IMG/VR virus record: IMGVR_UViG_3300033747_000028
Location: 1-43,062 of that record
DNA: 43,062 bases
Reading direction: 5' to 3' (one strand)
Source: a virus
Made by a program: the position numbers and the translations under genes
Part shown: piece after piece, positions 37,272 to 42,588 of the stretch
Position numbering within the stretch: position 1 is the stretch's first letter
How the letters are laid out: the number at the start of each line of letters is the position of its first letter
The notes under the pieces: generated by a model
What the model saw: the letters and a program-made list of their open reading frames with translations, nothing else
Databases searched by the model: none
What the model was told of the DNA's origin: nothing

Positions 37272-37589
37272 ATGAAAGGATTTCCTAAAAAATTAAAGAC
37301 AAAAAAAGATTATGAAAATATCGTCGATGATTTCGGCTACACTCAAAAAGTAAAAGAAGCTTATCAGGCATTGTTAGAAACTGATCAGCATTATGTATTT
37401 GATAAAGAACTGGCAACTGAGGATGAAAGGACTGGCCCGCTCCCTGATTATAAAATAATGAAAGAAGATGATCAGGAAACCGAGACGGTTAAAATTGTTC
37501 AGTATAAATTAGTAGATAACCCTGACTCAAAGCTCAAAGAGTTAGGATTTACAGAATCTGAAGTTCAAGAGGTGATTGACTTATGCTAA
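37272..37589 (+). CDS. Hypothetical linker or fibre-assembly protein
   Basis: A 105-residue charged protein, ATG 37272 after GAGGAGGTATTATAA. The N-terminal half is a small helical domain (KTKKDYENIVDDFGYTQKVKEAYQALLE). The middle is acidic and the C-terminus has SKLKELGFTESEVQEVIDLC. It lies exactly between the fibre gene and the DGR target gene and overlaps the latter by 7 bp, so it may chaperone or bridge the adhesin. Function not recognised. Confidence 0.5.
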   Translation: MKGFPKKLKTKKDYENIVDDFGYTQKVKEAYQALLETDQHYVFDKELATEDERTGPLPDYKIMKEDDQETETVKIVQYKLVDNPDSKLKELGFTESEVQEVIDLC

Positions 37590-38629
37590 GTGTAGTAGGA
37601 GTAGATAGTCCTGCTTTTTACAACGCTGAAGGAAACATAGAAAAGACAACCGGAGTCCAGGGAGTAGATATTCCGGCCCTGGCATTAAGAATTAATAGGC
37701 AGAACTTAAAAATTGAATCAGCATCAGCACTAACTGCCTCAGACAATGATGGCAGTTTTTCTAGTTTTGCGATGGGTACAGATTATTATATCTATGCCTG
37801 TCAACCAGCTGATGGTATTGAGCCAGACTTTGTGCTTTCGGCTAACTCTACTTATCCAGATACAATTCCTTCTGGAGTTACGCCCAGTGCTGATAACACT
37901 CGGAAGATTGGTGGCTTTCATTATGGCCGGGTAAGGAACAGTTCTACAGCTTCTGATGTATCAGAAAGCATTGTACCTAACTCAGTTTGGGACCTTGTTA
38001 ATCGTCCTAAATGTTCCCCTGAGGGGATGGCTAAGGTAGGAAACCTTTGGGTAGATATTTATCTGGCATCTGATGATGGTAACGGTGGTGTTGAATCAAA
38101 ATATAATGCGACACCTATAACCGGAACTGAAGGCTTAAGCTGGTACAGTTTCGCTGAAAGGTTTGCCAAAGTTGATAAGAGGATGGCATCAATGTCAGAG
38201 TGGACAGCATTAGCTCAGGGCAGTCCTCAGGGTAACGATGGTGACAATGTCAATGCCTGGTCTGCTACCAGCAACAGCAGTAGAACTGCAACTGGTACTG
38301 TAACCAATGCTATCAGTAATTATAATATTGTCGATTGTGCTGGTAATGTGTATGAGTGGTTGGATGAACTTTCTATTAGACAGGATAGTTCAGTGACTAC
38401 CGACTGGCGCTGGTATGATCCCGATACTGACTTTGATGAAAGCATCGAAAGCAATTGGAATGAGTTAGGAGATTTATATCTACCTAATGATAATGGTCTT
38501 ACTGCTTTCAGAGCAGGTGGCGGCTGGGACTATGGTGTCCGCTGCGGTGCTCGTTCGGTCGACGTGGGCTACCGACCGTGGGGCGTGTTCTCGCTCCGCG
38601 GGTCTCGTGGTGTCTGTGATCCTCTGTAA
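37583..38629 (+). CDS. DGR variable protein: C-type-lectin/FGE-sulfatase-like phage adhesin
   Basis: A 348-residue protein, ATG 37583 overlapping the previous gene. About residues 1-150 are a beta-rich N-terminal region that should attach to the tail. About 155-348 form a formylglycine-generating-enzyme-type C-type lectin fold (VGNLWVDIYLAS, MASMSEWTALAQGSP, CAGNVYEWLDE, then GLTAFRAGGGWDYGVRCGARS). The last 39 codons hold the variable repeat. Variable residues are 314, 316, 317, 320, 327, 329, 330, 331, 334, 336, 338 and 339, embedded in an invariant frame of GW, CGARSV, PW and GSRGVC. In other DGR phages this protein binds the host receptor; here that is inferred from position after the tail fibre. 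Confidence 0.93.
   Translation: MLSVVGVDSPAFYNAEGNIEKTTGVQGVDIPALALRINRQNLKIESASALTASDNDGSFSSFAMGTDYYIYACQPADGIEPDFVLSANSTYPDTIPSGVTPSADNTRKIGGFHYGRVRNSSTASDVSESIVPNSVWDLVNRPKCSPEGMAKVGNLWVDIYLASDDGNGGVESKYNATPITGTEGLSWYSFAERFAKVDKRMASMSEWTALAQGSPQGNDGDNVNAWSATSNSSRTATGTVTNAISNYNIVDCAGNVYEWLDELSIRQDSSVTTDWRWYDPDTDFDESIESNWNELGDLYLPNDNGLTAFRAGGGWDYGVRCGARSVDVGYRPWGVFSLRGSRGVCDPL
38514..38618 (+). repeat. DGR variable repeat (VR)
   Basis: A 105-bp copy of the template repeat at 39031-39135 (constant offset of 517 bp, no gaps). It differs at 18 positions, and at all of them the template has A. Changes are to G (11), T (5) or C (2). The last 19 bp (38600-38618, a GT-rich run without A in either copy) are identical and are the likely initiation-of-mutagenic-homing (IMH) region. 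Beyond 38618 the two copies diverge. It ends 11 bp before the stop of the adhesin gene. Confidence 0.97.
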
Positions 38630-38672
38630 TTCGTGATTTGATAATCTGTCTTTTTATAAGGTGTGAATACTT

Positions 38673-39008
38673 ATCAAAAATTTTACAATACATCAAAAAG
38701 TATATGATTTTATGGTTTGGTTTTTCCCGATTGTAGATAACTTTCCGAAGTACGAAAAATTTGTACTTTGTACTCAAATTAAGAATTCAATACTTGATAT
38801 CTCAAAAATTATTATTGAAGCAAATAAATCTAGAGGTAGCAAAGTTAGATTTCTGCACCGGGTAGATGTCAGACTTGAACAATTAAGAATGCTGATCAGA
38901 TTTTCTCACAAAAGAAGATATTTAAATGATTCTAAATATGAAAATGCATCTAAAAAAGTCAATGAAATAGGCCGCATGCTTGGAGGTTGGATCAAGTCGT
39001 GCGATTAA
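38673..39008 (+). CDS. avd: DGR accessory variability determinant (Avd)
   Basis: A 111-residue four-helix-bundle protein: KNFTIHQKVYDFMVWFFPIVDNFPKYEKFVLCTQIKN, then GSKVRFLHRVDVRLEQLRMLIRFSHKRRYL and ASKKVNEIGRMLGGWIKS. The last segment is diagnostic for DGR Avd proteins, pentameric basic partners of the reverse transcriptase. The conserved N-terminus lies upstream of the first ATG (38712), which has no ribosome binding site. In frame, only non-standard starts exist after the stop at 38664: ATA 38667 or ATC 38673, behind AAGGTG (38658-38663). I favour ATC 38673. It ends 22 bp before TR. Confidence 0.85.
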   Translation: MKNFTIHQKVYDFMVWFFPIVDNFPKYEKFVLCTQIKNSILDISKIIIEANKSRGSKVRFLHRVDVRLEQLRMLIRFSHKRRYLNDSKYENASKKVNEIGRMLGGWIKSCD

Positions 39009-39030
39009 ATATTTGGGGTTAAGAGCGTTA

Positions 39031-39135
39031 CAGGTGGCAACTGGAACAATGGTGTCCACTGCGGTGCTCGTTCGGTCAACGTGAACAACCAACCGTGGAA
39101 CGTGAACTCGAACAACGGGTCTCGTGGTGTCTGTG
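39031..39135 (+). repeat. DGR template repeat (TR)
   Basis: A 105-bp non-coding template. It holds 24 adenines, 18 of which are replaced in VR. Read in the target frame, it has nine AAC, one AAT, one CAC and one CAA codon at exactly the 12 variable positions; the fixed frame between them is free of A. AAC and AAT can only mutate to NNC or NNT codons, so no stop codon can arise. Located between avd and the reverse transcriptase gene, as in the Bordetella phage BPP-1 DGR. Confidence 0.97.
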
Positions 39136-39376
39136 CTCTTCATGCAAAAATCTTTCAGACAGTAGTGGTTACGGCCACTGCTGCAGTGTTTCTAGAAATG
39201 AGGAACAGGCTTTTAATCCCTGCTGAGATACTTTTTAAGTCAATCCAGCAAAAAATTTAGATTGCTGGCCAGGCAGCAAGTATTGAAAAATAGAAAGTTG
39301 TCACAGTCAGCGACTGCCCGTTCTCATTTGAGCGGGCTTTTAATTTTCACCCACAAATAAAGAAAGTGGTGATAAT
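39136..39376 (+). ncRNA. Structured spacer of the TR RNA
   Basis: No gene occupies this 241-bp spacer between TR and the reverse transcriptase. It holds hairpins that fit a structured template RNA. One is 39160-39183 (9 bp with one G-U, loop TTACGG). Two mutually exclusive hairpins share one arm: 39245-39250 with 39263-39268, or 39262-39267 with 39274-39279. In BPP-1, the RNA downstream of TR is known to prime and bind the RT-Avd complex, so a similar role is likely. A terminator-like stem (39316-39347) closes the region. Confidence 0.6.
39316..39347 (+). terminator. Intrinsic terminator or stem between TR and RT
   Basis: GCCCGTTC (39316-39323) pairs with GAGCGGGC (39330-39337) over 8 bp with one G-U, loop of 6 nt, followed by TTTTAATTTT. 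It may terminate part of the TR transcript and so give a TR RNA in excess over the reverse transcriptase mRNA. Confidence 0.65.
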
Positions 39377-40489
39377 ATTCCAAAAAAATTTAAAAATTTA
39401 TATCCTAAAATATATAACTTTTCAAACTTATTAGTTTCTTATGAAAATGCTAGAAAATCTAAACGATATACTAATCAAGTTCTTGAATTTACTAATCAGT
39501 TAGAAAGTAATTTAATCAACCTTCAAAACCAGCTTATCTGGAAAGAATATTTACCTGGTGAATATCATCAATTCTATGTTTATGAACCTAAGCAGAGGTT
39601 AGTTATGGCACTTCCTTTTGAAGATAGAGTGGTCCAGTGGGCTGTATATAGAAACCTAAACCCTATATTTGATAAAACTTTTTATGAACATAGTTGTGCC
39701 TGCCGGATTGGCAAAGGTACTCATTATGCAGCAGACCAGCTGCAGCACTGGATGAGAAAACTCGACAGGAGCCCAGGGAAAACTTATTATCTCAAAGCTG
39801 ATGTTGCAAAATATTTCTACAGGATAGATCACAGAACTCTTTTCGAAATAATCAAAAGAAAGATTGGCTGCAGAGATACTTTAGAGCTGATCTGGAAAAT
39901 TATCAAAAAAGATGATGGTGAATTTGGGATACATCTCGGTGATCATTACTTTGAAAGGGATAAAATTAAAGGAATTGGAATCCCAATTGGTAACTTAACC
40001 AGTCAATTATTTGCTAATGTTTATCTAGATTTTATGGATAAATTCATTAAACATAATTTGAGAGTGAAGCACTATGTAAGATATATGGATGATTTCGTTA
40101 TCCTGGGAAAATCAAAGAAAGAACTACATACAATTAGACAGGAGATAGAAATATTTCTTGCTGATTATCTAAAATTAGAACTTAACAATAAAACTACCGT
40201 GGACAATATCTGGAATGGTATAGATTTCTGCGGATATGTTACTTATCCACCATATAGAAAATTGAGAAAAAGTACAAAGAGAAAACTGAAAAGGCGGCTT
40301 AAATATCTTCAGAAAAAGTATTATAAAGAGGAGGTGGAGATCGATGAAATAAATGCCAGTGTTCAAAGCTATTTAGGAATATTAAAACATTGTAATAGCC
40401 ATAATCTGACAATGTCAGTTATTGGCCAGTTAGAAGATGAAATACTTAATCAACTAGATTTAGATGACGTACGAGAACAAAGAAGTTGA
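39377..40489 (+). CDS. DGR reverse transcriptase
   Basis: A ~370-residue group-II-intron-like DGR reverse transcriptase. Catalytic Asp142 in KADVAKYF, the DGR-specific IGNLTSQ (204-210; DGR enzymes carry this in place of other RT motifs), and YMDD (236-239) are all present. It copies TR RNA into A-mutagenised cDNA for VR. Homology runs well upstream of the first ATG (39605): YNFSNLLVSYENARKSKR and LIWKEYLPGEYHQF are the conserved N-terminus. The only start consistent with it is ATT 39377, five bases after GTGGTG. The first part of the gene would be lost in standard gene calls. Confidence 0.93.
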   Translation: MPKKFKNLYPKIYNFSNLLVSYENARKSKRYTNQVLEFTNQLESNLINLQNQLIWKEYLPGEYHQFYVYEPKQRLVMALPFEDRVVQWAVYRNLNPIFDKTFYEHSCACRIGKGTHYAADQLQHWMRKLDRSPGKTYYLKADVAKYFYRIDHRTLFEIIKRKIGCRDTLELIWKIIKKDDGEFGIHLGDHYFERDKIKGIGIPIGNLTSQLFANVYLDFMDKFIKHNLRVKHYVRYMDDFVILGKSKKELHTIRQEIEIFLADYLKLELNNKTTVDNIWNGIDFCGYVTYPPYRKLRKSTKRKLKRRLKYLQKKYYKEEVEIDEINASVQSYLGILKHCNSHNLTMSVIGQLEDEILNQLDLDDVREQRS

Positions 40490-41014: not shown

Positions 41015-41493
41015 AAGTTGTAGATGTTAGAGATAAGTTACCAACTCATAATTCCAAGAGATATCCAACCAGACCTCTTTCTGCTATATATTATATAGCG
41101 GTACATCACAGTCTTACAGATAACATACCAGGTGGTGAAGATGTCAAGGCTTTTGCAAGATATCATGTCAATAATTTAGACTGGCCGGGCATTGGATATC
41201 ATTATGTGATTGACACTGACGGAACTGTATATAAGACTAACGCAGCCAAAACAAAAAGTTATCATGTAGGAAAACATAATCAATCAGCTTTAGGGGTTTG
41301 TTTAGTTGGTGATTTTAGAGATTATGACCCAACAGACAAACAGTACCAGGCTCTTGTTGAGTTACTAAAAACTTTGCAAGATGCTTATGGCATAACTACC
41401 GAAAATATCAAAGGCCACAGCGAATTTGAAGGTTACAAATGGAAGAAATGTCCTGAGATAGATATGGATCAACTAAGAAAAGAGGTTGAATGA
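41011..41493 (+). CDS. N-acetylmuramoyl-L-alanine amidase (endolysin)
   Basis: A 160-residue amidase_2 enzyme. Zinc ligands are visible: His32/His33 in YIAVHHS, His136 in KGHSEFEG, and Cys147 in WKKCPE. It cleaves the bond between muramic acid and L-alanine in peptidoglycan. There is no separate wall-binding domain, so the protein is a lone catalytic module. ATG 41011 overlaps the holin stop by 4 bp. Confidence 0.92.
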   Translation: MKVVDVRDKLPTHNSKRYPTRPLSAIYYIAVHHSLTDNIPGGEDVKAFARYHVNNLDWPGIGYHYVIDTDGTVYKTNAAKTKSYHVGKHNQSALGVCLVGDFRDYDPTDKQYQALVELLKTLQDAYGITTENIKGHSEFEGYKWKKCPEIDMDQLRKEVE

Positions 41494-41707
41494 TATGACT
41501 GAAGATGAAAAGAAAGAATTAAAAGGAAGATTACTTTCATTTGTCTCTAGAAAGTTTTTGATAGCTCTAGTTATTCTGATAGCTTCTACTGTAATGGTTA
41601 TGAAAAATCAATTAGATGCGACCCAGTGGCTTGGTATAGTTACTGCAGATCTTTTAACTTATGATTTTTCAAATGCTTACTCAAAAAAAGCAAAAAAGGA
41701 GTGGTAA
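41486..41707 (+). CDS. Small membrane protein of the lysis region
   Basis: A 73-residue protein overlapping the amidase end. Two hydrophobic segments (about residues 17-32 and 41-56) and a basic C-terminus (YSKKAKKEW). It may be a second holin or an antiholin, as its membrane topology and position suggest. No family recognised. Confidence 0.5.
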   Translation: MNDMTEDEKKELKGRLLSFVSRKFLIALVILIASTVMVMKNQLDATQWLGIVTADLLTYDFSNAYSKKAKKEW

Positions 41708-41708
41708 T

Positions 41709-42116
41709 TTGAAGAATAAAACTAAGATTATATTAATTGTAATTGCTGTAATTATTGCTCTATTACTTTTATTTTTTGTTGGAAAAGAAATTGCTGCAGG
41801 TTTTGCAGCCGTCTTAGGAATTTTTGGTTTTAGTAGCAATAAAGCCCTCAAGAAAAAATCAGAAGAGATTGAGAAAAAAGCTGATCAGGAAAAAGAAATC
41901 ACTAAAAAAGTAGAAATTAATATTGATGATCGTCAGTCTAAAGATGAGCAGCTTCAGCAAAATGATAAAGAAAGAGCTAGCACGGCTGAGGAACTAGAAA
42001 AGCAAAGCGAAGGCAGGGAAGAACGTTTAGAAGAGATTGAAAATAACCAAAAAGCTCGTAAAGAAAAAGGTAAAGAGCTAAGTGCCAGGCTGGAAGAATT
42101 GAAGGAAGGTGATTAA
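41709..42116 (+). CDS. Membrane-anchored coiled-coil protein (possible inner-membrane spanin)
   Basis: A 135-residue protein starting at TTG 41709 after AAGGAGTGG. An N-terminal membrane segment (about residues 7-37) is followed by a long, charged coiled coil (about 45-135, Lys/Glu/Gln-rich). This is the topology of an i-spanin, and the next gene encodes an exported coiled-coil protein. Not identified by motif; it overlaps the next start. Confidence 0.5.
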   Translation: MKNKTKIILIVIAVIIALLLLFFVGKEIAAGFAAVLGIFGFSSNKALKKKSEEIEKKADQEKEITKKVEINIDDRQSKDEQLQQNDKERASTAEELEKQSEGREERLEEIENNQKARKEKGKELSARLEELKEGD

Positions 42117-42117
42117 G

Positions 42118-42588
42118 ATTAAAAAATTACTGATTGTTATTATAGTTTTGGCTTTGTTATTTTTGCCAGGGCAAGTTAATGCTCAGGATCAGTCTGATAT
42201 GAGCTATCAAAAACTCTTAGAACGAAATCGAGAGCTTACTGAAATCGCTGAAGGGTTCAAACAAAACTGGCAGGAAGCAGAGAAAGATATCGATAAACTG
42301 CAGGAAGAAAATAAAGATTTGGTAGCTGAAAGAAATGAATTTAAACGATTATATAAAGAAGAAAGAGAAGATAAAAAAGAACAAAGACAACTTTATCTAA
42401 GCACTGAAGAAGATTTGAAAAGAGTTTTAAACTCTAATGAAAGATTACATCAATACATTGATAGTTTAAATAAAACCATTGACGAATATTTAGGAAGAAG
42501 TGATATATCTGTTTCAACCGGAGTCGGTTATAATTTAAAAAATCCAGAAGAGAGTTTATTTATTGTTCAGCTTGAATTTGGAATTTAA
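42118..42588 (+). CDS. Exported coiled-coil protein (possible outer-membrane partner), probable ATT start
   Basis: A 156-residue protein. A classical signal peptide (KKLLIVIIVLALLFLPG after the start, cleavage after VNA) shows export. It is followed by a coiled coil (about residues 30-120) and a C-terminal strand-rich tail (VSTGVGYNLKNPEESLFIVQLEF). The signal begins exactly at ATT 42118, six bases after AAGGTG; the in-frame GTG 42109 lies inside that site. There is no lipobox, so it is not a standard o-spanin. It may help disrupt an outer membrane. Confidence 0.5.
   Translation: MKKLLIVIIVLALLFLPGQVNAQDQSDMSYQKLLERNRELTEIAEGFKQNWQEAEKDIDKLQEENKDLVAERNEFKRLYKEEREDKKEQRQLYLSTEEDLKRVLNSNERLHQYIDSLNKTIDEYLGRSDISVSTGVGYNLKNPEESLFIVQLEFGI

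Follow-up and report, generated by a model that had tools for sequence, protein, structure and literature searches.

In the diversity-generating retroelement (DGR) of Bordetella phage BPP-1, a 21-bp IMH element sets directionality, and a hairpin downstream of the variable repeat (VR) is needed for efficient homing (PMC3240598). A GC-rich hairpin, mostly with a GRNA loop, follows VR in BPP-1 and in the seven other named phages inspected. The locus described here is part of the 43,062-base IMG/VR virus record IMGVR_UViG_3300033747_000028 (hereafter the window) and is almost certainly a functioning DGR of the Avd type, as in BPP-1. Elements of this kind are already known; the host lineage is new.

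Anatomy and activity of the retroelement

All parts of a DGR are present between positions 37583 and 40489, colinear and in the BPP-1 order: the adhesin gene with VR, avd, the template repeat (TR), a spacer and the gene for the reverse transcriptase (RT) (Table 1). Upstream of this block, tail sheath, baseplate wedge, P2 gpI-like and tail-fibre proteins were identified by means of Pfam and PHROG, and genes for a holin and an amidase are located downstream of the RT gene. The "bridging protein" preceding the adhesin matched no Pfam or PHROG family. Several small proteins, some of them apparently membrane-associated or coiled-coil, are encoded after the amidase gene (41486-42588) and probably constitute a lysis module.

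Table 1 Features of the DGR locus, with positions in the window
Feature	Position	Strand	Basis or remark
105-aa protein	37272..37589	+	ORF between tail fibre and adhesin; no family match
DGR target, Mtd-fold adhesin (348 aa) with variable C-terminal lectin-like domain	37583..38629	+	PF21916, PHROG, AlphaFold
Variable repeat (VR)	38514..38618	+	105-nt repeat
IMH-like extension, degenerate 7-7-8 nt phased YTG repeat	38619..38650	+	ATCCTCTG-TAATTCG-TGATTTG-ATAATCTG; no hairpin follows
Avd accessory protein (98 aa)	38712..39008	+	PF22296, NF033474, 4dwl
Template repeat (TR)	39031..39135	+	105-nt repeat
Spacer RNA	39136..39345	+	Putative binding/priming region by analogy with BPP-1
Intrinsic-terminator-like hairpin with T-rich tail	39316..39345 (stem 39316-39337)	+	Folding
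Shine-Dalgarno-like AAAGTGGTGA	39364..39373	+	8/10 match, precedes RT codon 1
DGR reverse transcriptase (370 aa), putative AUU start at 39377	39377..40489	+	Motifs, PDB match, Shine-Dalgarno sequence, codon conservation

The adhesin matched the Pfam family mtd_2nd (5e-19) and a PHROG tail protein family (1.6e-56). Its AlphaFold model, built on an alignment of 36 sequences (pLDDT 80, pTM 0.82), superposes over the whole length on all five Mtd crystal structures (1yu0-1yu4) with E-values of 2e-17 to 2.6e-18 and TM scores of 0.67-0.70, at a sequence identity of 23-25 %. Judged by this predicted fold, the adhesin is a diverged Mtd, and VR occupies the C-terminus of a C-type-lectin-fold target. By analogy, the variable domain is predicted to bind the receptor, and changes in VR would then switch receptor and host range. 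The accessory protein was assigned to Pfam bAvd (2.3e-29) and, above the cut-off, to NCBIfam DivGenRetAVD (2.8e-31), and matched Avd of BPP-1 (4dwl). The RT contains GIPIGNLTSQ (39977-40006) and YMDD (40082-40093), which provide the motif 4 signature [ILV]GxxxSQ as IGNLTSQ and the motif 5 signature YxDD. Its best PDB match is the DGR RT of BPP-1 (8ub7, 1e-53), with group II intron RTs far behind (1e-21). The original prediction had placed a complete DGR on a contractile-tailed phage, comprising a VR-bearing adhesin, Avd, a 105-bp TR/VR pair, a structured spacer and an RT with IGNLTSQ and YMDD; every one of these parts was recovered, and the RT, which might have fallen outside the DGR kind, is DGR-type by its SQ motif and its nearest solved structure.

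TR and VR form a gap-free alignment of 105 nt. VR differs from TR at 18 of the 24 TR adenines (11 to G, 5 to T, 2 to C) and at none of the 81 other positions; the probability that all 18 mismatches fall on adenines by chance is about 1.7e-15. Twelve codons of VR are variable, none of which can become a stop. Two scans of IMG/VR retrieved relatives, both close and distant, of the RT and of the adhesin. Across the 24 distinct VRs of these relatives, 47.5 % of the TR adenines are changed, as compared to 0.3-0.8 % of C, G and T. Some contigs from separate metagenome records are identical over about 1 kb of the adhesin gene, TR and RT and show 12-18 differences in VR, nearly all of them at TR adenines. 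One such pair (L002/L003) has 12 VR differences, 12 of 12 at TR adenines, with a single difference in 1000 upstream positions and none in TR or in the 1300 nt beyond it; a second pair (L010/L017) has 17, likewise all at TR adenines, and four further contigs (L030, L031, L032, L036) have 12-18, with none upstream and at most one between VR and TR. Since VR alone differs between otherwise identical relatives, the DGRs of this clade are active in nature. The population variation in VR that the original prediction demanded as a check was thus found between near-identical relatives. For the window's own strain, no VR variants were detected, and the contig of a near-identical sibling (L013, terminase 100 % identical) ends about 8 nt into VR, so that activity is demonstrated for close relatives and not for the window's own genome. 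The contig end within VR fits population heterogeneity and is just as compatible with an assembly break caused by the repeat. Two related loci with another target (L006 and L007, see below) are identical across the 1000 nt upstream of VR and differ at 23 VR positions.

By homology to BPP-1, an RNA comprising TR and the structured spacer would be reverse-transcribed by the RT together with Avd, adenines would be misread in the process, and the resulting cDNA would replace VR in the 3'-terminal part of the Mtd-like adhesin gene. Up to 12 codons would vary, with no stop possible, and the binding of the contractile tail would change.

Sequence features downstream of VR and in the spacer

Sequence reading and folding revealed no GC-rich hairpin with a GRNA loop 3' of VR in the window or in the Mtd-type members of its clade. 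The fold z-scores of the post-VR region are +0.83 for the window, +0.84 for L036 and +0.06 for L010. An automated scan for GRNA hairpins misses mismatched stems (e.g., in L006 and L051); its 29/36 split was therefore set aside, and the hairpin-free status of the clade relies on the reading and folding. The hairpin is a usual but not universal feature and, according to a published account, important for efficiency and not strictly required (PMC12875486); assignment to the Avd-type DGRs therefore stands. VRs still vary in the hairpin-free Mtd-type relatives. The clade is an example from nature in which homing is active although the hairpin is missing, which bears on how VR is told from TR. A GATA-loop hairpin is present in four loci (L006-L008 and L091) whose RTs are 78-85 % identical to that of the window. 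As the target of L006 is an FGE-type protein, different from the adhesin of the window, the hairpin seems to accompany the target and not the RT. These four loci combine a closely related RT and spacer with an unrelated FGE-type target (the FGE match was run on L006), which points to target swapping between phages.

Many DGR loci carry ATCTG or related YTG words right after VR in steps of 7 or 8 nt, e.g., at +11, +18, +25 and +33 past VR in L041 and L010. The copy in the window is degenerate, with CTCTG, TTCG, TTTG and TCTG at 7-7-8; the repeat is also seen in L042, L056, L059, L095, L096, L241 and L248. In the 70 nt after VR of 43 loci, 62 [AT]TCTG words were counted, compared with 11.9 in dinucleotide shuffles (maximum 21); there were 2 after TR, and 4.8 from background. 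Base autocorrelation yielded z-scores, inflated by the relatedness of the loci, of 3.9 at lag 7 and 5.2 at lag 8 in the discovery set, where lag 8 also reached 2.9, a lower value, after TR. In 37 non-redundant loci the corresponding z-scores were 5.0 (lag 7) and 3.8 (lag 8). These loci, obtained from three new RT scans, had been inspected by eye before the statistic was written and represent independent data, not a blind test; nothing comparable occurred in them upstream of VR, downstream of TR or at the adjacent lags. No description of such a repeat was found in the DGR literature searched, coverage of which was thin for subscription journals.

We propose that the phased repeat may be part of the IMH signal that marks VR as the recipient. 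Inheritance from a common ancestor, or a constraint of coding or composition with no role in homing, has a substantial, if less than even, chance of accounting for the repeat instead: the loci are related, and the post-VR region is short and in part coincides with the final codons of the target gene and with the avd ribosome-binding region. Against this explanation, the peaks at lags 7 and 8 recur in both the discovery and the independent set and are missing in the upstream control and, for the independent set, after TR. Moreover, BPP-1 carries CACCTG-ATTCTTG in the stretch corresponding to its directionality-setting 21-bp element (PMC3240598).

The spacer between TR and the RT gene comprises about 240 nt and folds better than shuffled sequences (z -3.4). 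Its helices covary, with changes on both sides in 12 of the 29 pairs of the consensus. Between spacer and RT, an intrinsic-terminator-like hairpin (GCCCGTTC-TCATTT-GAGCGGGC, followed by a T-rich tail) is predicted in the folded clade members except L010 and L011, and sequence changes in it preserve pairing (e.g., GCCTGCTC/GGGTAGGC in L009 and L093). The TR RNA could terminate at this hairpin, which might also restrict RT expression further. An Rfam scan of the DGR region gave no match. In some single-sequence folds, spacer GTTGTCAC paired over a long range with the Shine-Dalgarno region of the RT; this pairing competes with a covarying helix and is not claimed. A putative short TCACC/GGTGA pairing around the Shine-Dalgarno site was seen by eye.

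Translation start of the reverse transcriptase

ORF callers place the RT start at ATG 39605, about 76 codons downstream of the beginning of the conserved protein at 39377. No in-frame ATG, GTG or TTG lies upstream of the conserved N-terminus IPKKFKNLYPKI in the window, the next one being ATG 39605. All 19 clade members examined (the window, L004, L006-L011, L014, L015, L022, L023, L027, L028, L032, L038 and L091-L093) have ATT or ATC as codon 1, and in most of them it is preceded by an 8/10 match to the Shine-Dalgarno sequence at a spacing of 7 or 9 nt; several have an in-frame stop just two codons 5' of it. The sole usual codon of other clade members is a TTG at -6 (L009, L093), at -39 (L010) or 7 codons inside. 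Among the 169 distinct DGR RTs with a scorable N-terminus, a usual start is available in 159 (ATG in 140) and absent in 10, all from this clade. Throughout the clade, the RT would be shortened or given a wrong start by gene callers. Over codons 1-76, summed differences amount to 1717, 1008 and 3098 at codon positions 1, 2 and 3, i.e. an excess at third positions.

From this arrangement, the RT apparently starts at AUU or AUC behind a strong Shine-Dalgarno sequence. It is unlikely that translation begins instead at the internal ATG 39605, or reaches the RT frame by frameshifting from GTG 39366 or 39369. A GTGGTG does sit just 5' of the RT, and the window has a slippery A-AAT-TTA whose frame would permit a -1 shift; however, the distance from the second GTG to the IPKK frame is 8 nt in the window and 10 nt in L015 and L032, the GTG frame runs into an early stop in L032, and the slippery site is not conserved in the clade, so that frameshifting from the GTG pair was rejected. 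Initiation at ATG 39605 would forfeit the 76 conserved codons, and codon 1 aligns with an ATG in the distant relatives L059 and L044.

A frozen or decayed element, whose VR was diversified formerly and whose RT is no longer made for want of a usual start, is highly improbable. The conserved N-terminus without a preceding ATG, GTG or TTG would suit such decay, and the clade does include a decayed member (L094, without avd, TR and most of the RT); yet the reading frame of the RT is unbroken, and its codon positions show purifying selection that begins at codon 1 (relatives at 68-97 % identity), and relatives with the AUU start display fresh adenine-specific VR differences between otherwise identical contigs.

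AUU starts are known from infC and pcnB of E. coli and from cvfC1 of S. aureus, the last with an extended Shine-Dalgarno sequence, and expression from the non-canonical starts tested in S. aureus was about one tenth of that from AUG (PMC1780047, PMC13009471). The DGR literature searched, thin on subscription journals, contained no report of an unusual RT start codon or terminator. A weak, conserved start on a mutagenic enzyme suggests that initiation at AUU/AUC acts as a throttle on the RT. Halanaerobium infC reads AGGAGGTGCATAAATATC, without a usual start and in the same layout as the RT gene. In the Halanaerobium genomes inspected (L106-L108), infC (encoding IF3) lacks a usual start and has a strong Shine-Dalgarno sequence before AUA or AUC; the copy of a Halanaerobiales MAG (L109) likely starts at AUC. 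The combined proposal of a second DGR target signal, i.e. a 7/8-nt YTG phase that marks VR and not TR and can suffice without the hairpin, and of a Halanaerobiales-phage RT restrained by AUU/AUC in parallel to host infC, is offered tentatively, as somewhat short of probable. The pattern confined to the VR side is amenable to mutation and bears on the recognition of VR as opposed to TR; the proposed start-codon throttle is amenable to testing and bears on the limits to expression of a mutagenic RT.

Host lineage and comparison with known systems

RTs with 78-85 % identity to that of the window were found in Halanaerobium saccharolyticum (two) and in a Halanaerobiales MAG, and a truncated relative in H. 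salsuginis. Based on these DGR relatives only, the window likely derives from a Halanaerobiales phage; its terminase had no match in 14 Halanaerobiaceae genomes. In the H. salsuginis prophage (L094, L012, L040), a deletion has removed two thirds of the RT from its N-terminal end, together with TR and avd; its DGR, left with the VR adhesin and the RT C-terminus, is no longer able to diversify. No paper joining DGRs and Halanaerobium was found in a literature search thin on subscription journals. The known DGR mechanism would herewith extend to phages infecting an order of hypersaline bacteria, its activity in nature being directly evident from sequences.

Compared to the BPP-1 DGR (mtd-avd-TR-brt), the window shares the gene order, the Mtd-fold target, Avd, the SQ-motif RT, A-specific mutagenesis and the A versus C mismatch right after TCTGTG at the VR/TR end. 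It differs by the lack of a GRNA-loop hairpin after VR and of a canonical RT start, by the terminator-like hairpin before the RT and by the other host lineage. Closest among the named phages is Bacillus phage BalMu-1 (NC_030945), with an RT 50.7 % identical to that of the window, the same order of target, avd, TR, RT, holin and endolysin, and ATCTG phased repeats after VR; in contrast to the window, it has the hairpin and an ATG-started RT and represents a different phage and host (Bacillus alcalophilus). The DGRs of H. saccharolyticum (L091, L093) share with the window, besides the high RT identity, the AUU/AUC start and the Shine-Dalgarno layout, whereas L091 differs in possessing a post-VR hairpin and a different target class, FGE/SUMF1-type as judged by its near relative L006.
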